Shown here: in pieces, positions 11,525 to 24,869 of the stretch
How the letters are laid out: the number at the start of each line of letters is the position of its first letter
Numbering within the stretch: the stretch's first letter is position 1
Assembly: GCA_030536575.1 (NCBI GenBank)
Contig: JAUNPS010000031.1
Span: 1-56,575 of the forward strand
Source: Eubacteriales bacterium
GTDB lineage: Bacteria; Bacillota; Clostridia; Lachnospirales; Lachnospiraceae
Direction of reading: 5' to 3'
Length of the DNA stretch: 56,575 nucleotides
Notes under the pieces: generated by a model
Database searches by the model: none
Told to the model about the DNA's origin: nothing
Seen by the model: the letters and a program-made list of their open reading frames with translations, nothing else
Position numbers and translations under genes: made by a program

Positions 11525-11905
11525 CTACCGCGACGCCGCTTCCAAACACCTCGCCACAGCATCCCGGATCCCCTCCGAAGTCACCGTCGCCCCGCTGACC
11601 GCATCCACCTCATAAGTCTGCGCTTCTACGATTGCGTCAGGAAGCTGTGCGATCGCAGCTCCGCCCAGATCGGGAGTCTCCGAATTTTCCCCAACGGTTA
11701 CACTGGCAATGCTGCCATTCTGAATGACGACCGTGACGTCAAAGTTGCCTTTTTTGCCTTTGGCTGTCTCGGTATAGGAGCCGTCCGTCCAGGTTCCCGC
11801 TGCCCCGATTTCGTAGGACTGCGCGTTTTTATCATTGGAAGTGCTGCATCCGGTAAGAAAAACCAGGCCTCCCGCAATAAGAAATAGAAAAGCTCGCTTC
11901 TTCAT
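11525..11905 (-). CDS. FMN-binding domain lipoprotein
   Basis: A 126-residue extracytoplasmic lipoprotein. The signal peptide MKKRAFLFLIAGGLVFLTGC ends in a lipobox, with Cys20 as the lipidation site. The mature part is a single FMN-binding domain with the flavinylation motif DAVSGATVTSEGIRDAV, where the Thr of SGAT is the expected site of covalent FMN attachment by ApbE-type transferases. Proteins like this carry electrons outside the membrane in Gram-positive anaerobes. No apbE or partner flavoprotein is in the window. ATG follows AGAAGGAG. Confidence 0.88.
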   Translation of the reverse strand: MKKRAFLFLIAGGLVFLTGCSTSNDKNAQSYEIGAAGTWTDGSYTETAKGKKGNFDVTVVIQNGSIASVTVGENSETPDLGGAAIAQLPDAIVEAQTYEVDAVSGATVTSEGIRDAVARCLEAASR

Positions 11906-12027
11906 AGTTTTTGTCGCTCCTTCTGTCCAAAAATCTTTTTACAAACATTTATAGGATAGCCGAAGGAAGGAGAAAAAGATACGACACAAACGGCGCTTAT
12001 GTCTAAATATTTATGTCTGGTATGCAG

Positions 12028-12303
12028 GAAACTGGCTGGGGCATGCCGCCGCCCACGCAGAGACGGTGGCTTATAGAGAGCGTAAAAGCGAAATGGGAAA
12101 CTGGCCAGGGCATGCCGCCGCCAGCGCAGAGACGGTGGCTCATAGAGAGCGTGAAAGCGAAATGGGAAATTGGCCTAGGGTATGCCGCCAGCGTGAAGAC
12201 AATGGCCCAAAGAGAGCACATGAAGGCGAAACGAGAAACTGGCTGGGGCATGTCGCCGCCCACGCAGAGACGGCGGCCCATAGGGAGCGCGAAACCTAAC
12301 CCG
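12028..12303. repeat. 4 x 69-bp imperfect tandem repeat (minisatellite)
   Basis: Four units begin at 12028, 12097, 12166 and 12235, each starting GAAACTGGC or a variant and containing GCATGCCGCCGCC and AGAGAGCG. Because 69 is a multiple of three, several frames stay open across it, but no frame has a convincing ribosome binding site. The last unit runs into the 3' end of the LysR gene. The stretch 11906-12027 holds only the lipoprotein leader. Confidence 0.92.
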
Positions 12304-13243
12304 GAAAATCGCCGGAATCCCCGCTGCATCGAAACCCGTCATGCCGTTTCAGCTCCTCCTCCAAATACTTCAAATACTTCTTCATCATATCCGTATGCTT
12401 ATGCTTCCGGCTGATCAGATACCCCACATGCACCGGCTCCACCGGCGCCCGAAAAGGCACCGCCACCACCTCCCCCGAAGCCGGAAGCTCCTCCGGCAGC
12501 ACCGGCCCGATACTGAAACAATCACTGTTTCGCAGAAACGAAAGCTTCGTCGCCCGGTCACTGACCGAAATCGTCTTTTCAGACAGCTCATGCAGTAGAA
12601 TCTCCTCCGTAAAATGGGAAGAAGCCCCTTCCTGGTCATAGATGACAAAGGGATAGGGCTCCAGCTCCGCAATCGTAAGCGCCGGTTTCCTGGCCAGCGG
12701 ATGGCCGCTCCGGATGAGAATCCGAAGCGGAAGGCTCCCGATTTCGCAGAAATCCAGATCATTGTCATCCAGGGCTTTCTGGATGACCGGCATATGGCTG
12801 TCATGGAGGCATACAATGCCGAGATCGCTCCGGTCGGCGGCAAGATCCTGAATGACGCTCTGCGTAGGGACTTCCCGCAGGGCGAAGTGGCAGCGTTCCG
12901 GGGCGAGGGCGTGAAACAGCCGATGAAAGGCCGCGGCGGCGAAAGGAAGGCGCTGGGCCGAGACGGAAAAACGGAGGGAAAGCAGGTCACGGTTCTGGTA
13001 GCGCTGTTTGAGAAAATCAGCCTGTTCGACGATCTCCCTGGCATGTTTCAGGAAATCTTCTCCTTCGGGGGTCAGGATGACACCGCGGTTGGTGCGCTTG
13101 AACAGGGTGATCCCCAACTCGGTTTCCGTTTCCTTGACGGCGAGGGAGAGGGCCGCCTGGGAGACATAGAGGCATTTCGCCGCCTCGGAAAAGGAGCGGT
13201 GCTGGGTGATTTCAATGATATATTTCATATTTTGAAGAGTCAT
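12296..13243 (-). CDS. LysR family transcriptional regulator, divergent from the malate/fumarate operon
   Basis: A 315-residue regulator. The N-terminal winged helix-turn-helix is MKYIIEITQHRSFSEAAKCL followed by SQAALSLAVKETETELG; a linker helix and periplasmic-binding-like effector domain follow (PLARKPALTIAELEPYPFVIYDQ). Start chosen at MTLQNM (13243). LysR regulators commonly control the divergent gene and respond to a pathway metabolite; malate, fumarate, oxaloacetate or succinate are candidates by position only. Its 3' end abuts the 69-bp repeats, which may have replaced the original C-terminal codons (SGDSGDFPG). Confidence 0.9.
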   Translation of the reverse strand: MTLQNMKYIIEITQHRSFSEAAKCLYVSQAALSLAVKETETELGITLFKRTNRGVILTPEGEDFLKHAREIVEQADFLKQRYQNRDLLSLRFSVSAQRLPFAAAAFHRLFHALAPERCHFALREVPTQSVIQDLAADRSDLGIVCLHDSHMPVIQKALDDNDLDFCEIGSLPLRILIRSGHPLARKPALTIAELEPYPFVIYDQEGASSHFTEEILLHELSEKTISVSDRATKLSFLRNSDCFSIGPVLPEELPASGEVVAVPFRAPVEPVHVGYLISRKHKHTDMMKKYLKYLEEELKRHDGFRCSGDSGDFPG

Positions 13244-13348
13244 AAGGCTTCCCGGCTTTCTAAAGTTTTTCATAGTTTATCACAAAGTTTCGGAATTGAA
13301 AAGCCTTGCTATTATATTTTTTAATATCCAGCCATAAGAAACTATTGC

Positions 13349-13377
13349 TTTACCAGCCATGCTCCCTATGTTATAGT
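13349..13377 (+). promoter_or_regulatory. Putative promoter of the mdh-hdr-flx-frd-fum operon
   Basis: TTTACC and TATAGT are spaced by 17 nt. The predicted start leaves a leader of about 108 nt before the malate dehydrogenase ATG. Confidence 0.55.
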
Positions 13378-13412
13378 AAACCTGATGAACAAGTTTTTCG
13401 GTTTTTCAGAAG

Positions 13413-13435
13413 TTTATAGGCGTTTGACCTATAAA
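13413..13435. promoter_or_regulatory. Interrupted palindrome in the operon leader (candidate operator)
   Basis: Perfect 8-bp arms TTTATAGG and CCTATAAA flank a 7-nt spacer, and the right arm runs into a T-run. It lies about 30-50 nt downstream of the predicted transcription start. It could bind a regulator (LysR or another) or act as a small attenuator. Confidence 0.5.
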
Positions 13436-13491
13436 TTTTTTTAAAACCCGATTGTTAAAAAATAAACAAATAAGAAAGGAAGGAACGTACC

Positions 13492-14442
13492 ATGAGCAGC
13501 AAAATTACCATTATCGGCGCCGGAAGCGTCGGCTCAACCATTGCCTACACATTATCCGCCAGCGATATTGCATCGGAAATCGTCCTGATCGATATCAATA
13601 AAGAGAAGGTTGCGGGAGAGGTCATGGATATCGAGCAGGGAACCTGTTTCCGCGACCCCATTTCCATCGTAGCCGGGGAATATGAGGATGCGAAGGATTC
13701 GGATATTGTGATCATTACTTCCGGCATTGCGCGCAAGCCCGGCCAGACCCGGATCGAGCTGACCCAGACGAACGTCAACATCTTAAAGAGCATTACGCCG
13801 GAGATCGTAAAGGCTGCGCCGAACGCCCTTTATATCATTGTGAGCAATCCGGTGGATATTATGACGTATGTCTTTACGAAAATTTCGGGACTGCCGGAGA
13901 GACAGATTATCGGCTCCGGGACGATTCTGGATACCGCCCGCCTGCGCTGCGGCCTGTCGGAACATTTCAAGATCGCGCAGAGAAACATTCATGCGTATGT
14001 GTTCGGCGAGCATGGGGATACGTCCTTCATTCCGTGGACAGGAGCTTATATTTCCGGCGTCAGTGTGGATGAATACTATGAAATCATGAAGAGTCAGGGC
14101 AGGACGGATGTGGAAAAGCTGGATAAGGAGGCTATGCTGACGTATGTGCAGAAGTCCGGCGGAAAGATCATTGCCAATAAAGGGGCGACGTTCTATGCGG
14201 TTTCCACGGCAGTCTGCCAGATCTGCAGAAGGCTTGTGGCGGCATCGGATTCGATGGCGACGGTTTCGACGATGATGCATGGGGAATATGGGATTGAAGA
14301 CGTCTGCCTCAGCATTCTGACGATCATCGGGCCGGATGGGGCGAAAGGCAAGGTGCCGATGCGCATGAACAAAGCGGAAATCGAAAAACTGCAGGCCAGC
14401 GCGCGGGCGCTCAAAGACGTCATTGCCCAGATTGAGTTATAG
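13492..14442 (+). CDS. mdh: Malate dehydrogenase on a lactate-dehydrogenase-like scaffold
   Basis: A 316-residue NAD-dependent 2-hydroxyacid dehydrogenase. The Rossmann motif GAGSVGSTIAYTL is followed by VLIDIN, whose Asp indicates NAD rather than NADP. The catalytic pair is DTARLR (Asp, Arg) and FGEHGDTS (His). The overall sequence resembles lactate dehydrogenase. However, the specificity loop reads GIARKPGQTR: Arg occupies the position that is Gln in lactate dehydrogenases and Arg in malate dehydrogenases. With fumarase and fumarate reductase downstream, the predicted reaction is oxaloacetate + NADH to malate. ATG follows AAGGAAGGAA. It is the first gene of the operon, with 28 nt to hdrB. 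Confidence 0.85.
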   Translation: MSSKITIIGAGSVGSTIAYTLSASDIASEIVLIDINKEKVAGEVMDIEQGTCFRDPISIVAGEYEDAKDSDIVIITSGIARKPGQTRIELTQTNVNILKSITPEIVKAAPNALYIIVSNPVDIMTYVFTKISGLPERQIIGSGTILDTARLRCGLSEHFKIAQRNIHAYVFGEHGDTSFIPWTGAYISGVSVDEYYEIMKSQGRTDVEKLDKEAMLTYVQKSGGKIIANKGATFYAVSTAVCQICRRLVAASDSMATVSTMMHGEYGIEDVCLSILTIIGPDGAKGKVPMRMNKAEIEKLQASARALKDVIAQIEL

Positions 14443-14470
14443 GAATTCGCATGTATAGAAAGGAAAAAAT

Positions 14471-15265
14471 ATGAAGTACAGCTATTATCCAGGGTGCACC
14501 CTACGCACCAAGGCGAAGCAGCTCGACACCTACGCCCGCGCTTCCGCCTCAGCCCTGGGCTTCGAACTGGAAGAAATCGAAAACTGGCAATGCTGCGGCG
14601 GCGTCTACCCCCTGGGCAGCGACGAAATCGCCACCAAATTATCCTCCGTCCGCGCACTTTCCGAAGCCAGAGACAAAAACCAGGAGCTCGTCACCCTCTG
14701 CTCCGCCTGTCACCACGTCATCAAACGCGTCAACGACGACATGAAAAACGTGGACGACATCCGCACCAGAGCCAACAACTACCTGAAACTGGACACTCCC
14801 TACACCGGCGAAACCACCGTCCTCCACTACCTGGAAGTCCTCCGCGACCGCGTCGGCTTCGACACCATCAAAGAAAAAGTGGTCAATCCCCTGAAGGGCA
14901 AAAAAATCGGCGCCTACTACGGCTGCCTCCTCCTTCGGCCGGGAAAGATCCTGGAATTCGACAATCCGGAAAACCCGCAGATCATGGAGGATTTCATCCG
15001 CGCCATCGGCGGCACCCCTGTGATCTATCCCTACCGGAACGAGTGCTGCGGCGGTTATATTTCCCTGAAAGAAAAAGAAATGTCCCAGACCATGAGCAGC
15101 AAAATCATGGACAGCGCAGAGGGCTTCGGAGCCGACATGCTCATTACCGCCTGTCCCCTGTGCCTGTATAACTTAAACAAGAGCGGAAACGGCAAGCTTC
15201 CGGTCTACTACTTCACCGAGCTTCTGGCAGAAGCCCTGGGTGTGAAAGAGGAGGTGACAGAGTAG
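14471..15265 (+). CDS. hdrB: Heterodisulfide reductase subunit B homologue (HdrB)
   Basis: A 264-residue protein made of two CCG domains. The first has Cys9 (YYPGCT), Cys41-Cys42 (QCCGG) and Cys77/Cys80 (CSAC). The second has Cys152 (YYGC), Cys192-Cys193 (ECCGG) and Cys228/Cys231 (CPLC). The spacings CX31CCX34CXXC and CX39CCX34CXXC match the signature that binds two noncubane [4Fe-4S] clusters in methanogen HdrB. There the clusters reduce CoM-S-S-CoB; clostridia lack that substrate, so another acceptor is used. Context suggests electrons go on to fumarate reductase. Codons are richer in C-ended forms than in mdh. It overlaps hdrC by 1 nt (TAGTG). Confidence 0.92.
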   Translation: MKYSYYPGCTLRTKAKQLDTYARASASALGFELEEIENWQCCGGVYPLGSDEIATKLSSVRALSEARDKNQELVTLCSACHHVIKRVNDDMKNVDDIRTRANNYLKLDTPYTGETTVLHYLEVLRDRVGFDTIKEKVVNPLKGKKIGAYYGCLLLRPGKILEFDNPENPQIMEDFIRAIGGTPVIYPYRNECCGGYISLKEKEMSQTMSSKIMDSAEGFGADMLITACPLCLYNLNKSGNGKLPVYYFTELLAEALGVKEEVTE

Positions 15266-15654
15266 TGGAAAAAGCAAAAAAACAGGTCGAAATGATCAAA
15301 GAGATCAGCGGAGTAAACCCCTTAAAATGCATGAAATGCGGAAAATGTTCCGCTACCTGCCCGTCCTTTAACGAAATGGATATCAAACCCCACCAGTTCG
15401 TCTCCTACGTGGTAAACGAGGATATTGAGGCGCTGGTAAATTCCAAATCCTTATGGAAATGCCTTTCCTGCTTTGCCTGCGTGGAGCGCTGTCCCAGAGA
15501 CGTAAAGCCCGGCAAACTCATCGACGCCGCAAGGCAGCTCGTGGTGCGCCAGAAAGGGCAGAACTATCTGACAGCCGATGAAATTCCGGAACTGCTGGAT
15601 CCGGAACTGCCGCAGCAGTTGCTTGTCAGCGCATTTCGCAGATACAGGAGGTGA
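15265..15654 (+). CDS. hdrC: Heterodisulfide reductase subunit C homologue (HdrC)
   Basis: A 129-residue soluble ferredoxin-like subunit with two [4Fe-4S] motifs, CMKCGKCSATCP (residues 22-33) and CLSCFACVERCP (near 67-78). It starts with GTG directly in the stop codon of hdrB, so translation is coupled. In characterised complexes HdrC links HdrA to HdrB. There is no membrane segment, which excludes the HdrE-type membrane complex. Confidence 0.92.
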   Translation: MEKAKKQVEMIKEISGVNPLKCMKCGKCSATCPSFNEMDIKPHQFVSYVVNEDIEALVNSKSLWKCLSCFACVERCPRDVKPGKLIDAARQLVVRQKGQNYLTADEIPELLDPELPQQLLVSAFRRYRR

Positions 15655-15659
15655 GTCTT

Positions 15660-17648
15660 TTGCAGAGGATTGGAGTGTTTGTCTGTCATTGCGGAAGCAA
15701 TATCGCCGCAACGGTAGACGTCAAAAAAGTAGTGGAAATCGCCGCCATGGAGCCTGGAGTCGTCCACGCGGAAGACTATCAGTACATGTGCTCGGAGGCC
15801 GGCCAGGCCAAAATCGCAGCAGCGATCAAAGAAAAAAATCTGACGGGGATCGTGGTATGTTCCTGCTCCCCGCGGATGCATGAAACCACCTTCCGCAAGG
15901 CGGCGGAGCGGGCGGGCTTAAACCCGTATATGGTGGAAATTGCAAACATCCGGGAACATTGCTCCTGGATTCACAAAGATATCGAAGAAGCCACGAAAAA
16001 AGCCGTGATCCTGGCAAGGGCCGCCATCGCGAAGGTGAATTTAAACGCCCCGCTGCATCCCGGCGAGAGCCGCGTGACGAAGCGCGTGCTGGTCATCGGA
16101 GGCGGCATTGCGGGCATCCAGACGGCCCTGGACATTGCGGACGCGGGCTACGAAGTGGATATTGTGGAAAAAACGCCCAGCATCGGCGGAAGAATGTCCC
16201 AGCTCGACAAGACGTTCCCGACCCTGGACTGCTCGGCCTGTATCCTGACCCCGAAGATGGTGGAAGCGGCCGCCCATGAGAAAATCACGATCTATACATA
16301 CAGCGAAGTGGAGAAAGTCAGCGGCTTCGTCGGCGATTTTACGGTAGATATCCGCAGGAAAGCCCGCAGCGTCGATATGGACAAATGTACGGGCTGCGGT
16401 GTCTGCCAGGAAAAATGTCCCTCCAAGAAAGCGCCCAGCGAATTTAACCGGGGCCTGAACACCCGAAGCGCCATTTATACGCCCTTCGCCCAGGCCATTC
16501 CGAACGTTCCGGTCATCGACCGTGAGCACTGCATTAAATTTAAGACCGGAAAATGCGGCGTCTGCGCAAAGGTTTGTCAGGCGGGAGCCATCGATTACGA
16601 CCAGAAGGACGAAATCATTACCGAAAAGTACGGAGCAATCGTCGTAGCCACCGGGTTTGACACGATCAAACTGGACAAATACGATGAATACGCCTACAGC
16701 CAGAGCAAGGACGTGATCACCTCTCTGGAGCTGGAGCGGATCATGAATGCGGCAGGCCCCACGAAAGGCCATCTGGAACGCCTCTCCGACGGCAAAGCGC
16801 CGAAGGAAATGGTCTTCATTCAATGCGTCGGAAGCCGCTGCTCGGACGACAGAGGAAAGAGCTACTGCTCGAAAATCTGCTGCATGTACACCGCAAAACA
16901 CGCAATGCTGATCAGAGATAAATATCCGGACGTCAATGTGACCGTGTTCTACATCGATGTGCGTACTCCCGGCAAGAACTTCGACGAATTTTACCGCAGG
17001 GCCGTGGAACAGTACGGCGTAAACTATATCAAAGGCCAGGTCGGGAAAGTCATTCCCCAGCCGGACGGCAAGCTGCTGGTGCAGGGCGTGGATCTTCTGG
17101 ATAACCGCCAGATCCTGAAAGAGGCCGACATGGTGGTTCTGGCGACGGCCATCGAGCCCGACCCGGACGTGCGCAAGATTGCTACCATGCTGACCGCAAG
17201 CATTGATACGAATAACTTCCTGACCGAAGCCCACGCAAAACTGCGTCCGGTGGAATCCCCCACGGCGGGCATCTTCCTTTCCGGCGTCTGCCAGGGGCCG
17301 AAGGATATCCCGGAGACGGTCGCTCAGGCCGGAGCGGCGGCGGTGAAGGCCATCGGGCTTCTGGCAAAGGACAAATTGCTGACAAACCCGTGTACGGCCC
17401 AGTCCGACGAACTTCTGTGCAACGGCTGTTCCGCCTGCGCGAATGTGTGTCCTTACGGCGCGATCAGCTATGAAGACAGACTGGTGAATGACCATGGAAT
17501 CCGCGAAACCCGCCGCATTGCCGTGGTAAACAACGCGTTGTGCCAGGGCTGCGGGGCCTGTACCGTGACCTGCCCGTCCGGAGCCATGGACTTGCAGGGC
17601 TTTTCCAACAGACAGATTATTGCGGAGGTGGATGCGATATGCCGATAG
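15660..17648 (+). CDS. hdrA: Heterodisulfide reductase subunit A homologue (HdrA), flavin-containing
   Basis: Core electron-distributing subunit of 662 residues. TTG 15660 was chosen because AGGAGG at 15646-15651 is 8 nt upstream; a GTG at 15651 falls inside that Shine-Dalgarno sequence. In order: a Cys-containing N-terminal domain (GVFVCHCGSN), FAD-binding GGGIAGIQTALDIA (about 147), ferredoxin CTGCGVCQEKCP (about 243), a second cluster motif CGVCAKVCQ (about 299), an unusual QCVGSRC...YCSKICCMY cluster site (about 388-407), and two C-terminal ferredoxins, CNGCSACANVCP (587) and CQGCGACTVTCP (628). The YCSKICC site resembles the FAD-proximal cluster of methanogen HdrA, the flavin of which bifurcates electrons. 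It overlaps the next gene by 10 nt. Confidence 0.93.
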   Translation: MQRIGVFVCHCGSNIAATVDVKKVVEIAAMEPGVVHAEDYQYMCSEAGQAKIAAAIKEKNLTGIVVCSCSPRMHETTFRKAAERAGLNPYMVEIANIREHCSWIHKDIEEATKKAVILARAAIAKVNLNAPLHPGESRVTKRVLVIGGGIAGIQTALDIADAGYEVDIVEKTPSIGGRMSQLDKTFPTLDCSACILTPKMVEAAAHEKITIYTYSEVEKVSGFVGDFTVDIRRKARSVDMDKCTGCGVCQEKCPSKKAPSEFNRGLNTRSAIYTPFAQAIPNVPVIDREHCIKFKTGKCGVCAKVCQAGAIDYDQKDEIITEKYGAIVVATGFDTIKLDKYDEYAYSQSKDVITSLELERIMNAAGPTKGHLERLSDGKAPKEMVFIQCVGSRCSDDRGKSYCSKICCMYTAKHAMLIRDKYPDVNVTVFYIDVRTPGKNFDEFYRRAVEQYGVNYIKGQVGKVIPQPDGKLLVQGVDLLDNRQILKEADMVVLATAIEPDPDVRKIATMLTASIDTNNFLTEAHAKLRPVESPTAGIFLSGVCQGPKDIPETVAQAGAAAVKAIGLLAKDKLLTNPCTAQSDELLCNGCSACANVCPYGAISYEDRLVNDHGIRETRRIAVVNNALCQGCGACTVTCPSGAMDLQGFSNRQIIAEVDAICR

Positions 17649-18082
17649 AAGCAAAAGAGGAATTCAGACCGAAAATTGTGGCGTTCTGCTGTAACTGGTG
17701 CAGCTACGCAGGCGCAGACCTGGCCGGCAGCAGCCGCCTGACCTACCCGGCCGACGTGAAAATCATCCGCGTGCCCTGTTCCTGCCGGGTGAATCCCATG
17801 TTCATTTTACGGGCCTTCGAAAAAGGGGCTGATGGGGTGATCTTATGCGGATGCCATCCGGGAGACTGCCATTACAGTACCGGAAACTATTATGCCAGAC
17901 GGCGTATGACCCTGCTGTTCTCCATGCTGGATTACATCGGCGTGGAAAACGGGCGTACCCGCGTGGAATGGGTATCCGCGGCGGAGGGTGTGAAATTCTC
18001 TGCGACGATGAACGAGTTCGTGGAAAAGATTTATTCCCTTGGGAAGAACGTCAGATTGGAGGATTTGCGATGCAGGAATTAA
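17639..18082 (+). CDS. flxD: MvhD/FlxD-like [2Fe-2S] electron-transfer subunit
   Basis: A 147-residue protein of the MvhD family, which connects HdrA to its electron input module. Characteristic Cys segments are FCCNWCSYAGAD near the N-terminus, VPCSCRVNP in the middle, and LCGCHPGDCHY; together they supply the [2Fe-2S] ligands. ATG 17639 lies within the end of hdrA, and the gene overlaps the next by 13 nt. In methanogens MvhD brings electrons from a hydrogenase. Here no hydrogenase is encoded nearby, and the NAD(P)H module downstream is the likely source. Confidence 0.92.
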   Translation: MPIEAKEEFRPKIVAFCCNWCSYAGADLAGSSRLTYPADVKIIRVPCSCRVNPMFILRAFEKGADGVILCGCHPGDCHYSTGNYYARRRMTLLFSMLDYIGVENGRTRVEWVSAAEGVKFSATMNEFVEKIYSLGKNVRLEDLRCRN

Positions 18083-19044
18083 TCAAGCGTGCGAAGGAAC
18101 TGCTGGCGGACGGAACCGTTGTCCGGGTTTTGGGCTGGAAAGCCGGAGACCTGCCTTACAATCCGGAGCCTGCGTACTTCGAAAAAGAGGAGGACTTCCG
18201 GGATTTCGTGTACAACGGATTCTGCGGGGCCAACTTGAGCAAATATATGATCGAAGCCTCCAAACTGGAGGGAAAAACCATGGTCTGTTTAAAGCCGTGC
18301 GATACCTACAGCTTTAACCAGCTTTTGAAAGAGCACCGGGTAGACCGGGAAAAGGCTTACATTGTGGGCGTGGGATGCAAGGGCAAGCTGGACATTGAAA
18401 AAATCAAAGCCCAGGGAATCAAAGGAATCCAGGCTATTTCCGGGGCGGAGCTTACGGATGCCGGGGATGTTCTGACGATCCAGACCCTCTATGGCGAGAA
18501 GACCTGCGCTTACGGGGATGCAATGCTGGAGCGCTGCCACGTCTGTAAGGGCAAGGAACACCGGATTTACGACGAAATCATCGGCGAATCCAAGGATACG
18601 AAGGACGCCGACCGGTTCGAAGAAGTGAAGAAGATCGAGGCAATGAGCCCGGAGGAGAAATTTGCCTTTTTCCAGAAGGAATTGAGCAAATGCATCCGCT
18701 GCAATGCCTGCCGGAACGTTTGTCCGGCCTGCAGCTGCCGCAAATGCGTCTTTGACAGCAACAAATTCGACAGCTCCCAGAAGGCCAACGCCGACTCCTT
18801 CGAAGAAAAAATGTTCCATATCATCCGGGCCTTCCATGTAGCGGGCAGATGCACGGACTGCGGCGAGTGCAGCCGGGTATGTCCCCAGGGAATCCCGCTC
18901 CATCTGTTTAACCGGAAGTTCATCAAGGATATTGACGAATTTTACGGGGAATATCAGGCCGGGGAGGACATTGAGGCAAAAGGGCCGCTGACCGACTTCA
19001 CCTTTGGAGACGTGGAGCCGAGTATTGTAGGAAAGAGGGGGTAA
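18070..19044 (+). CDS. Flx-type iron-sulfur subunit with FrhB-like domain (FlxC-like)
   Basis: A 324-residue protein. The N-terminal half resembles the coenzyme F420 hydrogenase/dehydrogenase beta-subunit fold (MVCLKPCDTYSFNQLL, AYIVGVGCKGKLDI). The C-terminal half has [4Fe-4S] motifs CIRCNACRNVCPACSCRKC (about residues 213-231) and CTDCGECSRVCP (about 260-271). ATG 18070 lies in the end of flxD. Such subunits pass electrons between the NAD(P)H module and HdrA. The exact Flx letter is my assignment by order (next to the MvhD-like gene) and could be swapped with the following gene. Confidence 0.85.
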   Translation: MQELIKRAKELLADGTVVRVLGWKAGDLPYNPEPAYFEKEEDFRDFVYNGFCGANLSKYMIEASKLEGKTMVCLKPCDTYSFNQLLKEHRVDREKAYIVGVGCKGKLDIEKIKAQGIKGIQAISGAELTDAGDVLTIQTLYGEKTCAYGDAMLERCHVCKGKEHRIYDEIIGESKDTKDADRFEEVKKIEAMSPEEKFAFFQKELSKCIRCNACRNVCPACSCRKCVFDSNKFDSSQKANADSFEEKMFHIIRAFHVAGRCTDCGECSRVCPQGIPLHLFNRKFIKDIDEFYGEYQAGEDIEAKGPLTDFTFGDVEPSIVGKRG

Positions 19045-19046
19045 GG

Positions 19047-20078
19047 ATGTATAAGATAGCGAAAGAAAATCTGTCCGCGCTCTTTGGGAAGATTGCCGAA
19101 AGCCGGGAACTGTATCTTCCGGTGAACATCAGCGGGCAGGCGAATTTTGCGGCCTGGAGCGAAGGGTCCGCCGTAGATCTGGATACGTTAAAGACCGTGA
19201 AATCCCCCAAGGACGCCTTCTTTCCCCAGAGCGAGAACCTCTACACGGTGAAGAAGGACGGAAAGAAGCTTTCCGTGGAGCCGGAAGCCTTAAAAGACCG
19301 GGATTTTGTGGTGTTTGGGATGAAAGCCTGCGACGTGCAGGGCATTCAGGTGCTGGACAAGGTCTTTCTGGCTGATCCGGTAGATACGTTTTATGCGGCG
19401 CGGAGAGCCCATGGAACCATTGTGGCGCTGGCGTGTCATGAGCCGGAGGAGACGTGTTTCTGCAAGGTATTCGGCATTGACTGCGCGGAACCCGCGGCGG
19501 ATGTGGCCGCCTGGATGGTGGACGGAGAACTTTACTGGAAGGCTCTGACGGAAAAAGGCGAGGCCCTGACGGAAGCGGTTCAGAGCCTGCTCACCAGCGC
19601 GGAGGGCGAAGAAGAAAAGATTGAAGAAGAGAAGAAAGCAATCCGCGCCATTGTGGAAAAACTTCCGTATTCCCATCTGTCCTTAGAGGGCTGGAACGGG
19701 GATTCGCTGAAGGAAAAATTCGATTCCCCTCTGTGGGAGGAACTGTATAAACCGTGCCTGGCCTGCGGGACGTGTACGTTCGTATGCCCGACCTGCCAGT
19801 GCTACGACATTAAAGATTATGACACCGGACACGGCGTGAAGCGCTACCGCTGCTGGGATTCCTGCATGTACTCGGATTTCACGATGATGGCCCACGGGAA
19901 CAACCGCACCAGCCAGATGCAGCGTTTCCGCCAGCGGTTCATGCACAAGCTGGTCTATTTCCCGGCCAACAACGACGGGATGTATTCCTGCGTGGGCTGC
20001 GGCCGCTGTGTGGAAAAATGTCCGGCAGCCTTAAACATTGTAAAAGTTATCAAGTCCTTTCAGAAAGAAGGTGAATGA
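19047..20078 (+). CDS. Flx-type 4Fe-4S subunit, sulfhydrogenase beta-like (FlxB-like)
   Basis: A 343-residue soluble protein starting 2 nt after its upstream neighbour. The N-terminal two thirds resemble the beta subunit of sulfhydrogenase/anaerobic sulfite reductase (FGMKACDVQGIQVLDKVFL, ALACHEPEETCFCKVFG). Two C-terminal clusters are CLACGTCTFVCPTCQC (about 243-258) and CVGCGRCVEKCP (about 316-327). A lysine/glutamate-rich linker (EEEKIEEEKKAI) separates the parts. It pairs with the following FAD/NAD(P)-binding gene as in HydBG and AsrAB. Confidence 0.87.
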   Translation: MYKIAKENLSALFGKIAESRELYLPVNISGQANFAAWSEGSAVDLDTLKTVKSPKDAFFPQSENLYTVKKDGKKLSVEPEALKDRDFVVFGMKACDVQGIQVLDKVFLADPVDTFYAARRAHGTIVALACHEPEETCFCKVFGIDCAEPAADVAAWMVDGELYWKALTEKGEALTEAVQSLLTSAEGEEEKIEEEKKAIRAIVEKLPYSHLSLEGWNGDSLKEKFDSPLWEELYKPCLACGTCTFVCPTCQCYDIKDYDTGHGVKRYRCWDSCMYSDFTMMAHGNNRTSQMQRFRQRFMHKLVYFPANNDGMYSCVGCGRCVEKCPAALNIVKVIKSFQKEGE

Positions 20079-20080
20079 GC

Positions 20081-20935
20081 ATGAGCGAATGTACCTGTCA
20101 CAAGAATTATACGCTGGATACGCTGATCCCGAAGGTGGGCGTGATTACGGATATCCGGGAGGAGACGCCGGATGTGAAGACGTTTCGGGTCAATGCGCCG
20201 GAGGGCGGAAAGCTGTTTGAACATATGCCGGGGCAATGCGCCATGCTCTGTGCGCCGGGCATCAGCGAAGGGATGTTTTCGATTACGTCGTCGCCGACGA
20301 ATAAGGAATATCAGGAATTCAGCATCAAAAAATGCGGGATTCTGACGGATTACCTGCACAGCCTGCAGGTGGGGGATGAGATTACCGTCCGCGGGCCTTA
20401 CGGGAATCATTTTCCGGTGGAAGAGGAGCTGAAGGGGAAGAACCTGCTGTTTATTGCAGGCGGGATCGGCCTTGCGCCGCTGCGTTCCGTGATTAATTAT
20501 GTGCTGGACAACCGGGAAAATTACGGGAGCGTGGATATTTTGTACGGTTCTCGTTCGGCGGACGATCTGGTGCAGTTAAAGGAGATTCAGGAAGTCTGGA
20601 TGAAGACCGAGGGCGTGAATGTGTATCTGACCATTGACCGGGAACAGGAAGGCTGGGACGGCCATGTGGGTTTCGTTCCGTCCTATTTAAAAGAACTGGA
20701 ATTTTCCACCGACAAGACGGCGCTGGTCTGCGGCCCGCCCATTATGATTAAATTCGTGTTGGCGGCGCTGGAGGAGATGGGTTTCAGCAAAACCCAGGTT
20801 TACACTACGCTGGAGCTTCGGATGAAATGCGGAATCGGGAAATGCGGCCGCTGCAACATTGGGGCGAAATATGTGTGCAAGGACGGCCCGGTGTTCCGAT
20901 GCGACGAGGTGGACGAACTTCCGGACGAGTATTAA
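20081..20935 (+). CDS. flxA: FAD/NAD(P)-binding oxidoreductase subunit (FlxA-like)
   Basis: A 284-residue ferredoxin-NADP reductase fold with a C-terminal iron-sulfur loop. The FAD-binding region includes MFSITSSPTN and the NAD(P) domain starts at LLFIAGGIGLAPLRSVI (about 122-138). The conserved CGPPIMI segment is near 222. The C-terminal CGIGKCGRC...C motif binds a [2Fe-2S] cluster, as in dihydroorotate dehydrogenase PyrK and AsrB. ATG 20081 has AAGGTG 7 nt upstream; an in-frame ATG at 20075 overlaps the previous stop but is too close to it. This is the likely NADH entry point of the complex. A 155-nt gap follows. Confidence 0.88.
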   Translation: MSECTCHKNYTLDTLIPKVGVITDIREETPDVKTFRVNAPEGGKLFEHMPGQCAMLCAPGISEGMFSITSSPTNKEYQEFSIKKCGILTDYLHSLQVGDEITVRGPYGNHFPVEEELKGKNLLFIAGGIGLAPLRSVINYVLDNRENYGSVDILYGSRSADDLVQLKEIQEVWMKTEGVNVYLTIDREQEGWDGHVGFVPSYLKELEFSTDKTALVCGPPIMIKFVLAALEEMGFSKTQVYTTLELRMKCGIGKCGRCNIGAKYVCKDGPVFRCDEVDELPDEY

Positions 20936-21090
20936 GCGGGAAGGGAGTTTCGGGAGGCACGGCGGAGGCCGCGAAAGCTGCCGGGAGATACTGGCGGGGG
21001 AAGCGTAATCCTGGCTGAACGGGCGCTCGAAGCCGCCGGAACGCAAAACATAAGTGACGAGAGAATCGAAAGAAAGGACTGGTAACGAAC

Positions 21091-21765
21091 ATGGAAAACA
21101 TGGTCAACGTATATTTTTTCGGTAAAAAATACAGCGTACCCGCAGATCTGACGATCATGACCGCAATGGAATACGCCGGCTACACCTTAAAGCGGGGCTG
21201 CGGCTGCCGCCACGGCTTCTGCGGCGCCTGCGCGACCATTTACCGGATCAAGGGAAAGAACGAATTAAAAACCTGCCTTGCCTGTCAGACCCAGGTGGAA
21301 GAAGGCATGTATGTGGCAAGCATCCCGTTTTTCCCCACAGACAAGCGCACCTATGACATTGAAGAGATTAAGCCGAACCAGCAGATCATGATGGAACTGT
21401 ACCCGGAAATCTATAGCTGCATCGGCTGCAATGCCTGTACGAAAGCCTGTACCCAGGATCTGAACGTGATGCAGTACATTGCCTACGCCCAGCGCGGGGA
21501 GCTGGAAAAATGCGCGGAAGAATCCTTCGACTGCGTAAGCTGCGGCTGCTGTTCCGTCCGCTGCCCGGCGGAAATTTCCCATCCGATGGTGGGCCTTCTG
21601 GCAAGACGCCTCACCGGAAAATACCTTGCGCCGGAGTCGAAGCACCTGACGAAGCGCGTGGAGGAGATCCATGCGGGGGCTTACGACGATTTGATCGAGC
21701 AGATCATGCAGAAGCCGATTACCGAAATGCAGGAACTTTACAACACCAGAGAGATTGAGAAATAA
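21091..21765 (+). CDS. frdB: Soluble fumarate reductase iron-sulfur subunit
   Basis: A 224-residue protein. The N-terminal [2Fe-2S] domain has Cys37, Cys39, Cys44, Cys47 and Cys62 (GCGCRHGFCGAC...TC). It is followed by ferredoxin motifs at Cys110-Cys120 (CIGCNACTKAC) and Cys148-Cys158 (CVSCGCCSVRCP). This is the layout of SdhB/FrdB and of the N-terminal part of methanogen TfrB. TfrB also carries a C-terminal HdrB-like CCG domain; here that domain is missing and a separate hdrB is in the operon. A short C-terminal extension follows. ATG follows AAAGGACTGG; 12 nt separate it from the flavoprotein gene. Confidence 0.87.
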   Translation: MENMVNVYFFGKKYSVPADLTIMTAMEYAGYTLKRGCGCRHGFCGACATIYRIKGKNELKTCLACQTQVEEGMYVASIPFFPTDKRTYDIEEIKPNQQIMMELYPEIYSCIGCNACTKACTQDLNVMQYIAYAQRGELEKCAEESFDCVSCGCCSVRCPAEISHPMVGLLARRLTGKYLAPESKHLTKRVEEIHAGAYDDLIEQIMQKPITEMQELYNTREIEK

Positions 21766-21777
21766 GGAGGGACAGCC

Positions 21778-23379
21778 ATGTTTACCCCAGAGATGATGGA
21801 ATCGATTAAAAAGGTGGAAGCCACCAGAGACGCGCGGATGGGGATGGAACCCCGGCGCATGACGGCTGAGGAAAAGGACACCCTCCTGAAAGCCTTCCAT
21901 CCGGACTACCGGGAAGACGGATTTGTGGAGATCCGGATCGGGCCGAACAAGGGACAGAAGGTTCCCACGGAATTAGGCCATCTTCTGCACTCCAACAGCC
22001 GTTTACTATTTGACAAAGTGGACTTAAATCAGGTAGACTATGATGTAGACGTGCTGGTGATCGGCGGCGGCGGAGCGGGTGCTTCCGCGGCCATCGAGGC
22101 CCATGAGGCGGGAGCGAAGGTCTGCATTGTGACGAAGCTTCGGATCGGGGATGCCAATACGATGATGGCCGAGGGCGGTATCCAGGCGGCGGACAAGGAG
22201 AACGATTCTCCGGTGCAGCATTATCTGGACGCCTTTGGCGGCGGCCATTTCGCCGCAAGGCCGGAGCTTCTGCGCAGGCTGGTCATGGAAGCGCCGGACG
22301 CCATCCAGTGGCTGAACAAGCTGGGCGTGATGTTCGACAAGGACGAAGAAGGGACGATGGTGACGACCCACGGCGGCGGAACCTCCAGAAAGCGGATGCA
22401 TGCCTGCAAGGATTATTCCGGTGCGGAGATCATGCGCACTCTGCGGGACGAGGTGCTGAACCGCCAGATTCCGGTGATCGAGTTCACCTCGGCGGTGGAG
22501 CTGATCAAGGATGAAAAAGGGCAGGTTGCCGGGGCGGTTCTGCTGAATATGGAGACGGACGATTACCTGGTGGCGAGAGCCAAGACGGTGATTATCGCGA
22601 CGGGAGGAGCCGGACGCCTGCATTACCAGAACTTCCCGACTTCGAACCACTACGGGGCTACCGCGGACGGCCTGGTGATGGGCTATCGTGCCGGAGCGCC
22701 GCTTCTGTATCAGGATACGATCCAGTACCACCCGACGGGTGTCGCGTACCCGGCGCAGATTTACGGTGCGCTGGTGACGGAGAAGGTGCGTTCCCTGGGA
22801 GCCATGCTGGTCAATGTGGACGGCGAAGCGTTTATGCATCCGCTGGAGACCCGCGACGTGGCTGCGGCTTCGATTATCCGGGAATGTACGGCCAGAGGAA
22901 AAGGCGTTACGACGCCTCTGGGAAGCGGCGTGTGGCTGGATACCCCGATGATCGAGCGGATCGGCGGGGAAGGAACCATTGAAAAGCGGATTCCGGCTAT
23001 GCTGCGGATGTACATGAACTATGATATCGATATGCGCAAGGTGCCGATCCTGGTTTACCCGACCCTGCATTATCAGAACGGCGGCCTGGAGATCGGCGGC
23101 GACGGTTTTACGAAGGTGATCGATAACCTGCTGGTGGCCGGAGAGGCCGTTGGGGGAATCCACGGAAGAAACCGTCTGATGGGAAATTCCCTGCTGGATA
23201 TCATTGTTTTCGGACGCAATGCAGGAAAGGCCGCTGCGGCGAAGGCGAAAGACGTAGAGCTTGGCGCCATGACCCTTTCCCACATCGAGGACTATGCGAA
23301 GGAACTGGAGAGCGCCGGAATCGTCTCCGACGACGTTTCCCCGCTGCTTCTGCCGAAATATGCCCGTCATGAGAGATAA
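21778..23379 (+). CDS. frdA: Soluble fumarate reductase flavoprotein subunit, short form
   Basis: A 533-residue FAD enzyme that would reduce fumarate to succinate. The FAD motif VLVIGGGGAGASAA is near residue 92, after an unusual N-terminal extension of about 90 residues. Catalytic landmarks are QYHPTG, the Arg/Asp of ETRDVAAAS, and GGIHGRNRLMGNSLLDIIVF. At the position of the covalent-FAD His of membrane FrdA/SdhA (RSHT) this protein has DANT, so FAD is probably non-covalent. The long C-terminal domain of FrdA is almost absent, with only about 45 residues after the GRNAG motif. No membrane anchor genes follow, so the enzyme is cytoplasmic. Related flavoproteins include aspartate oxidase, but the neighbours favour fumarate reductase. 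Confidence 0.85.
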   Translation: MFTPEMMESIKKVEATRDARMGMEPRRMTAEEKDTLLKAFHPDYREDGFVEIRIGPNKGQKVPTELGHLLHSNSRLLFDKVDLNQVDYDVDVLVIGGGGAGASAAIEAHEAGAKVCIVTKLRIGDANTMMAEGGIQAADKENDSPVQHYLDAFGGGHFAARPELLRRLVMEAPDAIQWLNKLGVMFDKDEEGTMVTTHGGGTSRKRMHACKDYSGAEIMRTLRDEVLNRQIPVIEFTSAVELIKDEKGQVAGAVLLNMETDDYLVARAKTVIIATGGAGRLHYQNFPTSNHYGATADGLVMGYRAGAPLLYQDTIQYHPTGVAYPAQIYGALVTEKVRSLGAMLVNVDGEAFMHPLETRDVAAASIIRECTARGKGVTTPLGSGVWLDTPMIERIGGEGTIEKRIPAMLRMYMNYDIDMRKVPILVYPTLHYQNGGLEIGGDGFTKVIDNLLVAGEAVGGIHGRNRLMGNSLLDIIVFGRNAGKAAAAKAKDVELGAMTLSHIEDYAKELESAGIVSDDVSPLLLPKYARHER

Positions 23380-23396
23380 CCAGTTGTGACGGCGGG

Positions 23397-23426
23397 GCGG
23401 GTATTCCCGGAAAAGGGGATGCCCGC
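23397..23426 (+). other. Stable hairpin between frdA and the fumarase genes
   Basis: A 12-bp stem (GCGGGTATTCCC with GGGGATGCCCGC, with G-T pairs) and loop GGAAAA, without a T-run, lies 17 nt after the frdA stop. It could act as an mRNA processing or stabilising element that sets relative expression. Confidence 0.5.
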
Positions 23427-23461
23427 AGGCCGCCGGATGCGAAAAAGAAGGAGTGAGAGCG

Positions 23462-24304
23462 ATGCGCGAAATAGAAGTAAGCCGGATTACGGATGTAGTC
23501 GAAAAGCTTTGTATTGCGGCAAACGAGCATTTACCGGAGGATGTGAAGGGCGCGATCCGTTCCTGCCGGGCCTGTGAGGACGGGGAGATTGCGAAGGGCG
23601 TGCTGGACAATATCATCGAGAACTTCGAGATTGCGGATGCGGAAAATGTTCCCATCTGCCAGGATACCGGGATGGCCTGCGTGTTCCTGGAAATCGGCCA
23701 GGATGTGCACCTGACGGGCGGAAATCTGGCGGATGCGGTGAATGAGGGCGTCCGCAGAGGGTATGATAAGGGCTATCTGCGCAAATCCGTTGTGAAAGAC
23801 CCGATCCGCAGAGGAAACACCGGGGACAATACGCCGGCGATGATTTATACGGAGATTGTACCGGGTGAAAATGTGAAAATTACCGTGGGGCCGAAAGGAT
23901 TTGGAAGCGAAAATATGAGCGCGATCCGGATGTTTAAACCCTCAGCCGGACTTCAGGGAATCAAGGATTTCATTCTGGAAACCGTGGAGACTGCGGGCCC
24001 GAACCCATGTCCTCCGATGGTAGTGGGCGTCGGAATCGGCGGAACCTTTGACAAGGCGGCGCTGCTGGCGAAGAAGGCGCTGATGCGGCCCATCGATTCT
24101 TCGAACCCGGATCCCTACTATGCGGATCTGGAAAAGGAGATGCTGGGAAAGATTAATGAACTTGGCATTGGGCCCCAGGGATTTGGCGGAAGGACGACGG
24201 CCATTGGGCTGAACATCGAGACGCTTCCGACCCACATTGCGGGGATGCCCTGCGCGATTAATATCAACTGCCACGTGACCCGTCACAAAACGGAGGTGAT
24301 CTGA
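23462..24304 (+). CDS. Class I (Fe-S) fumarate hydratase, alpha subunit
   Basis: A 280-residue N-terminal half of two-subunit class I fumarase, interconverting malate and fumarate with an oxygen-labile [4Fe-4S] cluster. Cluster-ligand Cys residues are expected in [13 protein letters not shown] (about residue 60) and [22 protein letters not shown] (about 180). The [18 protein letters not shown] segment is also typical. ATG 23462 has AAGGAG 8 nt upstream; GTG 23453 is in frame but poorly placed. The C-terminus has INCHVTRHK. Tartrate dehydratase subunits are related; the operon argues for fumarase. Confidence 0.92.
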
Positions 24305-24305
24305 G

Positions 24306-24869
24306 ATGGAAAAGCATATTACGCTGCCTTTAACGGAAGAACTGGCGAAAACGCTCCATGCCGGGGATACGGTGTATCTGACCGGAACGATTTATACGTC
24401 CCGTGACGCGGGGCATAAGAGAATGTGCGAGGCCCTGGCCAGGGGAGAGGAGCTTCCCTTTGATCCCACGGATGCGACGATTTATTATGTGGGGCCGACG
24501 CCGGCGAAGCCCGGACAGGTGATTGGGTCTGCGGGGCCAACGACCAGCGGGCGGATGGATGCTTATGCGCCGACGATGATGGCGGTTGGCGCGAGGGGCA
24601 TGATCGGAAAAGGAGCCAGGCTGCCGGAAGTGGTGGAGGCCATGAAGAAGTATTCCGGGGTTTATTTTGGGGCGATTGGCGGGGCTGGGGCCCTGCTGGC
24701 GAAGTGTATTAAGAAGGCGGAGCTGATTGCTTATGAGGATTTGGGGGCAGAGGCTTTGCGGAGGCTTTATGTGGAGGAGATGCCTTTGGTGGTGATTATT
24801 GACAGCGAGGGCAGGAATCTGTATGAAGAGGGAAGAGCGGCTTATCTGGCGGCCCGGAAATCGGAATAA
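24306..24869 (+). CDS. Class I (Fe-S) fumarate hydratase, beta subunit
   Basis: A 187-residue C-terminal half of class I fumarase, one base after the alpha gene. Family motifs are GDTVYLTGTIYTSRDAGHKRM, YYVGPTPAKPGQVIGSAGPTT, and IGKGARLPEV...GGAGALLAK. It forms the complete enzyme with the alpha subunit. Last gene of the operon, followed by a hairpin terminator. Confidence 0.93.
   Translation: MEKHITLPLTEELAKTLHAGDTVYLTGTIYTSRDAGHKRMCEALARGEELPFDPTDATIYYVGPTPAKPGQVIGSAGPTTSGRMDAYAPTMMAVGARGMIGKGARLPEVVEAMKKYSGVYFGAIGGAGALLAKCIKKAELIAYEDLGAEALRRLYVEEMPLVVIIDSEGRNLYEEGRAAYLAARKSE

Follow-up and report, generated by a model that had tools for sequence, protein, structure and literature searches.

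A conserved gene block of gut Clostridia that may encode a soluble, electron-bifurcating NADH:fumarate reductase

Twelve-Gene Operon from Oxaloacetate to Succinate

We analyzed a 56,575-nucleotide stretch of DNA (hereafter, the window) of Eubacteriales bacterium (Lachnospiraceae; GCA_030536575.1, contig JAUNPS010000031.1, positions 1–56,575), in which twelve consecutive genes, mdh to fumB, form a putative operon. The best reading of this operon, and in our judgment a rather probable one, is that it encodes a soluble NADH:fumarate reductase bifurcating electrons between fumarate and ferredoxin. All twelve open reading frames (ORFs) were located on the plus strand between 13492 and 24869: a lactate dehydrogenase (LDH)-type mdh, hdrBCA, flxDCBA, frdBA, and class I fumAB. 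Every gene listed in the first-pass annotation of this DNA was present, in the same order and on the same strand, and all the steps from oxaloacetate to succinate are encoded in one gene cluster. Its description of the genes as mostly overlapping was a slight overstatement: five of the eleven junctions overlap (by 1, 4, 10, 13, and 4 bases), while six do not (gaps of 28, 2, 155, 12, 73, and 1 bases). The layout makes a single transcript for the twelve genes likely; the plus strand of the widest gap (155 bp, flxA–frdB) showed neither a promoter nor a terminator consensus. The genes are as follows.

13492..14442, plus strand: mdh, LDH-fold protein of 316 aa with Arg81 as the specificity residue, probably a malate dehydrogenase
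14471..15265, plus strand: hdrB, two CCG sites, ten Cys (family profiles, alignment)
15265..15654, plus strand: hdrC, two 4Fe-4S motifs, eight Cys (family profiles, alignment)
15651..17648, plus strand: hdrA, full-length flavin subunit, 665 aa (profiles, alignment to solved HdrABC)
17639..18082, plus strand: flxD, MvhD-like, 147 aa (PF02662; start taken as 17639)
18070..19044, plus strand: flxC, Fe-S subunit, 324 aa (family profiles)
19047..20078, plus strand: flxB, sulfhydrogenase-beta/AsrA-like Fe-S subunit, 343 aa (family profiles)
20075..20935, plus strand: flxA, FAD/NAD(P)-binding subunit, 286 aa (PF00175, PF00970, PF10418)
21091..21765, plus strand: frdB, C39/C44/C47/C65 and two CxxCxxCxxxC motifs, 224 aa
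21778..23379, plus strand: frdA, flavoprotein, 533 aa (family profiles, alignment)
23453..24304, plus strand: fumA, class I fumarase alpha subunit (NF004885, 418.6 bits, cut-off 276; start perhaps ATG 23462)
24306..24869, plus strand: fumB, class I fumarase beta-type Fe-S hydro-lyase subunit (NF005310, 284 bits, cut-off 238)

Judging by their families, Mdh and FumAB would convert oxaloacetate via malate to fumarate. By the precedent of HdrA2 and Flx, FlxA would accept hydride from NADH, and FlxB, FlxC, and FlxD would relay the electrons to the flavin adenine dinucleotide (FAD) of HdrA, which would split each pair: one electron would run via HdrC, HdrB, and FrdB to the flavin of FrdA, reducing fumarate, and the second to ferredoxin. 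The overall reaction would be 2 NADH + fumarate + ferredoxin(ox) -> 2 NAD+ + succinate + ferredoxin(red). HdrB would take the place of the fused HdrB-like domain of methanogen TfrB or of the SdhE subunit of class E fumarate reductases.

Hdr/Flx Module

All seven subunits of a FlxABCD-HdrABC complex were encoded with conserved cluster motifs. The FlxABCD-HdrABC NADH dehydrogenase/heterodisulfide reductase of Desulfovibrio vulgaris, reportedly described by Ramos in 2015, has the same seven subunit types, whereas the operon studied here adjoins frdBA and has no DsrC-type gene among its twelve. HdrA is full-length: residues 6–663 aligned with HdrA of the solved HdrABC structures (5odc, 692.5 bits), and the cysteines of its CxxCxxCxxxC motif were invariant (71/71). 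Equally invariant were the ten cysteines and two CCG sites of HdrB (72/72) and the eight cysteines in the two 4Fe-4S motifs of HdrC (70/70). The presence of the FlxA family bears out the NADH-type donor module that had been proposed.

The profile of HdrA2 from the Methanosarcina acetivorans HdrA2B2C2 ran from HdrA on into FlxD of the window; HdrA and MvhD, split here, are fused in that enzyme, which uses F420H2 as the donor and heterodisulfide as the acceptor (PMC5296606). The top NCBIfam matches of HdrB were the SdhE anchor (146.9 bits) and HdrB (131.8 bits), both below the cut-off; that of SdhE is 500 bits, which sets HdrB apart from the class E 8-methylmenaquinol:fumarate reductase (SdhABE). 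A likeness to methanogen TfrAB was also evident: the TfrA profile was the best NCBIfam match of FrdA (333.8 bits, below the curated cut-off of 718), and pieces of the TfrB profile were distributed over FrdB (19–166), HdrC (118–220), and HdrB (415–486). Unlike in TfrAB, the HdrB-like domain is a separate protein here, FrdB (224 aa) having no CCG domain. This spread of profiles has the look of a split TfrB/SdhE-like electron path.

The same genes could alternatively represent two enzymes: FlxABCD-HdrABC would reduce a disulfide, either a small molecule or a protein, and FrdAB would use the dithiol as a thiol:fumarate reductase, as methanogen TfrAB does. Both CCG sites and all ten cysteines of HdrB are kept, as in disulfide-reducing Hdr, and the Flx-Hdr of D. 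vulgaris was postulated to reduce DsrC (PMC5296606). However, the HdrB-like domain of TfrB has no counterpart in FrdB, whose 224 aa compare with a profile of 488 positions, and no carrier gene was found among the twelve; we consider this division decidedly unlikely.

Fumarate Reductase Subunits

The closest solved proteins to FrdA were SdhA/FrdA (best 219 bits). In comparison with SdhA, FrdA, and NadB of Escherichia coli, FrdA of the window retained the catalytic His/Thr/Glu/Arg/His/Arg set (H318, T334, E335, R359, H431, and R466), and N127 occupied the place of the FAD-binding histidine of SdhA/FrdA. These six residues, N127, and Gly199 were identical in 96/96 aligned members; E132 was conserved in 91 of them and replaced by Gln in five. 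FrdA also has an N-terminal extension of ~88 aa. Its predicted model (predicted TM-score 0.73; mean predicted local distance difference test (pLDDT) 68, low around the active site) agrees with an FrdA/SdhA fold, the best match being E. coli FrdA (1kf6). FrdB contains a 2Fe-2S-type motif and two CxxCxxCxxxC motifs, with all twelve motif cysteines invariant (90/90). Quinone-type FrdB has a [3Fe-4S] site; the last motif of FrdB in the window differs from that pattern in having four cysteines.

Two other assignments of FrdA were tried and rejected. One was a membrane quinol:fumarate reductase of the complex II type: there is no membrane-anchor gene among the twelve, beside FrdAB or elsewhere in the operon, the covalent FAD histidine is absent (N127), and no UbiA-family protein (quinone prenyltransferase) was found in the genome, which is 90.7% complete (controls 14/14 positive; other quinone genes lay outside the search). 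This upholds the first-pass view of a soluble fumarate reductase working without a membrane quinone. In the class-wide genome sample described below, UbiA occurred in 7/54 genomes with FrdA and in 132/337 others (P = 1e-4, overstated since the genomes are related). The other was L-aspartate oxidase: NadB has Glu at the position of Gly199, and the genome possesses its own NadB, over the cut-off, on contig C8. NadB was the only FAD_binding_2 match of the genome besides FrdA above 100 bits. A 669-aa flavoprotein of the SdhA/NadB fold (88 bits; L190:2298–4307, contig C52) was below every NCBIfam cut-off.

Distribution and Inheritance of the Block

The distribution of the system was determined in a class sample of 391 genomes including its own (FrdA at E <= 1e-60, HdrA at E <= 1e-130). 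FrdA and HdrA were each found in 54/391 genomes and both together in 52, counts that are not independent, the sampled genomes being kin to one another. FrdA alone was present in G130 and G416, and HdrA alone in G082 and G092. The two genes were on the same contig and strand in 46 of the 52 genomes and on different contigs in six; in 45 of the 46 linked pairs, the spacing between FrdA and HdrA was 3942–4196 bp. In G325, frdBA lies ahead of hdrBCA-flx, another gene order yet still adjacent. Seven genomes among the host and 60 relatives have operon-type FrdA, and the other six all have the order hdrBCA-flxDCBA-frdBA.

A comparative search for the same order in other Clostridia recovered this nine-gene core intact in 55 of the 80 named loci, which are the closest of 549 (its frequency is given by the class sample instead). 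Of the remaining 25, 24 are interrupted by a contig edge, and L032 has all nine genes, its HdrA being split between two ORFs. The nine-gene order is conserved far beyond chance, and the core is inherited as a block within the class. The whole block was present in the named isolates Blautia luti, B. schinkii, B. glucerasea, Clostridium asparagiforme, Mordavella massiliensis, and Porcincola intestinalis; the record titles of many loci mention gut, rumen, or faecal samples. G103 departs from most genomes in that its HdrA shares 89% but its FrdA 76% identity with the window, possibly owing to recombination within the block.

In a phylum sample of 398 genomes, 39 FrdA matches (38 genomes) with 54–65% identity kept the N-terminal extension; another 14 matches (<=41% identity) begin later in the protein. 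The neighbours of 24 of the 39 phylum-level loci outside the class were inspected: four had hdrBCA and flxDCBA, three had other HdrA-containing sets, two had hdrBC only, and 15 had no clear Hdr genes nearby. In the two loci with hdrBC only (L168, L169), frdBA adjoins these genes and hdrA is absent from the stretch; we count them in favour of the bifurcating reading. Among the 15 Hdr-free stretches, L183 contained a weak HdrC-like match. Neighbouring genes were read for nine of these 15: pyruvate carboxylase (L160, over the cut-off; L163, by eye), a malic enzyme-like gene with fumarase (L170, below the cut-off; L166 and L179, by eye), an NrfH-like cytochrome (L174, below the cut-off), and membrane genes (L175 and L180, by eye) stand near FrdAB, while the neighbours in L167 were uninformative. 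FrdAB is thus a portable module, and from its varied neighbours outside the class its electron donor seems to depend on the lineage.

Malate Dehydrogenase, Fumarase, and Oxaloacetate Supply

The first ORF exceeded the NCBIfam cut-offs for L-lactate dehydrogenase (NF000824, 339.4 against 339; TIGR01771, 327.7 against 303.55) and reached no NCBIfam cut-off for malate dehydrogenase, so automatic annotation would name it LDH. At the specificity position, LDH has Gln and malate dehydrogenase Arg; the ORF has Arg81, invariant in 44/44 aligned relatives. Of the solved LDHs aligned to it, 4m1q shows Gln at this position and 1y6j Arg, and since the latter is also called an LDH, Arg81 is good but not final evidence for malate dehydrogenase. 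We therefore set the LDH reading aside and regard the gene as a probable malate dehydrogenase; the first-pass call is backed by the specificity residue, while the curated cut-offs point to L-LDH.

Among 96 loci surveyed around frdA, 72 are core-complete. Class I fumarase was within reach in 56 of the 72 and mdh was present in 43; neither fumarase class was found in ten, and both classes never occurred together. In four loci (L019, L020, L134, and L135), a class II fumarase, sited between mdh and hdrB, substitutes for class I; two of the four class II proteins were scanned, and both were over the cut-off. The exchange of class I for the unrelated class II enzyme is good evidence that the substrate is fumarate. 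L164 and L165, which encode a distant relative, 38–39% like the reference, were left out of these clear cases. ATP-type phosphoenolpyruvate carboxykinase had no match in the host genome (the GTP type lay outside the search). A transporter of the AspT/YidE family, a candidate succinate exporter, was found near frdA in 45/96 loci (e.g., L028:4116–5285) and is absent from the operon of the window.

Regulation

Three further features flank the genes.

13349..13377, plus strand: weak candidate sigma-70 promoter, 9/12 (consensus match only)
13452..13469, plus strand: Rex operator-like site TTGTTAAAAAATAAACAA, 22 bases 5' of the mdh start codon
24889..24909, plus strand: terminator-like stem 3' of fumB (consensus only; comparable matches are no more frequent than in shuffles)

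Rex is a repressor sensing NADH/NAD+, and a Rex gene was found in the genome, over the cut-off. The site upstream of mdh has one mismatch to TTGTTAANNNNTTAACAA, which we take to be the Rex operator consensus. At up to three mismatches, the window contained three Rex-like matches against 1.25 expected, and only the one-mismatch site stands out. Sites with up to two mismatches were located upstream of 26/54 related operons (0.58 expected from shuffles) and in 5/256 other upstream regions of the same loci (Fisher 4e-18, uncorrected for kinship). Rex would probably let go of the operon at high NADH. The candidate promoter and the Rex-like site are separated by an inverted repeat (21 nt, 81% complementary, 7-nt loop; 13400–13448).

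Electron confurcation, the reverse process in which succinate and reduced ferredoxin together reduce NAD+, is very improbable. Hdr systems are in principle reversible; however, N127 stands in place of the covalent FAD-binding histidine, and E. coli FrdA without the covalent FAD link retains fumarate reduction while succinate oxidation is abolished. The Rex-like site and the mdh and fum genes fit an NADH sink.

Energy Conservation and Non-Bifurcating Alternatives

An Rnf gene row was found elsewhere in the genome, with C, D, G, E, and A over the family cut-offs and B just under (239.3 against 252). Rnf would convert reduced ferredoxin into an ion gradient, and fumarate reduction would thereby conserve energy without quinone. 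The standard free energy of the bifurcating reaction is about −49 to −33 kJ/mol with ferredoxin at −420 to −500 mV. Contig C93 encodes an RnfC-like protein of 654 aa (L188:3996–7497, over the cut-off) adjoining a MetF-like gene (below the cut-off); a 206-aa gene, MetV-like by eye, lies by these two, as in acetogens.

Alternatively, Flx/Hdr could be a mere wire from NADH to FrdAB, ferredoxin being uninvolved and the energy of the step lost. The HdrABC-MvhD-MetFV complex of Moorella thermoacetica showed diaphorase activity and no reduction of ferredoxin (PMC8578096, citing Mock 2014), and a plain NADH-dependent fumarate reductase is assumed in the model of Blautia luti (PMC12773636). A wire, however, would hardly require a full-length HdrA with all its motif cysteines, accompanying FrdA in 52/54 genomes; we consider such an enzyme unlikely.

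Several observations weigh against a bifurcating fumarate reductase, besides the kinship of the sampled genomes. Because the Moorella complex did not reduce ferredoxin, the presence of HdrA is no proof of this activity, and the HdrA reading frames of G231 and G421, two of the 54 genomes, are interrupted by a stop. With 15 of the 24 inspected loci outside the class lacking clear Hdr genes, FrdAB does not depend on Hdr in general, and no gene fusion joining the modules was found. The predicted structure of FrdB was too poor for use (mean pLDDT 57), and the Pfam scan did not find the PF02910 domain in FrdA. No Rex-like site within three mismatches was present in 20/54 related operons, and the seven FrdA genomes with UbiA do carry the prenyltransferase. 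Finally, Gly199 is located where E. coli FrdA has Phe. Together with the distance of the subfamily from tested enzymes, this substitution would fit an FrdA acting on another enoate, with fumarate reduction secondary. Such a role is extremely improbable, however: all six carboxylate-binding and proton-transfer residues are kept, the block includes fumarase and malate dehydrogenase, and the fumarase class is exchanged in 4/72 core-complete loci.

Relation to Known Systems and Significance

The idea of a bifurcating fumarate reductase is not new. The same hypothesis was published in 2020 for the 'succinate operon' of Pseudoclostridium thermosuccinogenes, whose fumarate reductase was termed unique and ferredoxin-coupled; its expression increased ~4-fold at low CO2, with significance not reached for all subunits, and H2 almost abolished succinate formation, as expected if ferredoxin needs re-oxidation, while the opposite effect of Na2S was called confusing (PMC7282089). 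By the published layout, fumarase, seven Flx/Hdr, and two fumarate reductase genes are adjacent, as in the window; compared by description rather than by sequence, that operon differs in belonging to a thermophile, in having fumarase first, and in that no mdh is listed (PMC7282089). The genome with its fumarate reductase genes, CDQ83_RS03320-25, did not feature in the 80 named loci. Fumarate reductase genes also lie among flx-hdr in the tfrAB-korABCD-flxABCD-hdrABC cluster of tubeworm symbionts, for which direct electron transfer was proposed; those are sulfur-oxidising Gammaproteobacteria, and the setting is the reverse tricarboxylic acid cycle (PMC6315080). No biochemical proof of a bifurcating fumarate reductase was found in the literature searched, a scope excluding preprints and most subscription papers. 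Our analysis adds the spread in gut Clostridia, the block inheritance, the Rex site, the failure to find a quinone prenyltransferase, the signature of non-covalent FAD, the fumarase replacement, and the portability of FrdAB.

In B. luti, frdAB transcripts were measured, and fumarate reductase, assayed with reduced methyl viologen, gave 504 mU/mg (PMC12773636); the main text of that paper mentions neither Hdr nor Flx. In the genome of B. luti MSK.16.34 (L094), the nine-gene block is accompanied by fumAB and by the Rex-like site of the window. This genome (G446) also encodes, on contig C95 (L136), a second, SdhA-like flavoprotein of 518 aa, nearest to the B. subtilis SdhA models and below the cut-off, an SdhB-like protein (TIGR00384, over the cut-off), and a 179-aa protein, membrane-like by eye, with no NCBIfam match. 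Owing to this second cluster, a competing candidate source of fumarate reductase activity in B. luti, the measured activity is not assignable and is no proof for the nine-gene block.

We tentatively extend the reading to many gut Clostridia, whose standard succinate route could be a quinone-free fumarate respiration: a nine-subunit soluble bifurcating complex, turned on through Rex when NADH is high and linked to Rnf, yielding ~0.56 ATP per fumarate if 2 H+ are translocated per ferredoxin pair and 3.6 H+ are required per ATP (PMC12773636). If so, a single soluble complex would do the work of a membrane quinone chain, and the energy balances published for B. luti and other succinate producers of the gut would be too low. 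The extra ferredoxin would supply the hydrogenase whose use was called unexpected, and energy yield, H2 output, and acetogenesis would be linked to succinate, a connection omitted by at least one current model (PMC12773636). Succinate ranks among the main cross-feeding products of the gut, and thanks to the conserved gene block the enzyme is easy to locate and test.

Genes Upstream of the Operon

A divergent LysR-type gene (12296–13273, minus strand), possibly a second regulator, matched LysR models, all those shown being below the cut-off. It adjoins a tandem repeat (12027–12294; period 69, 3.9 copies). A small lipoprotein-like ORF (11525–11905, minus strand) is of the flavin mononucleotide-binding type by eye and had no NCBIfam match.

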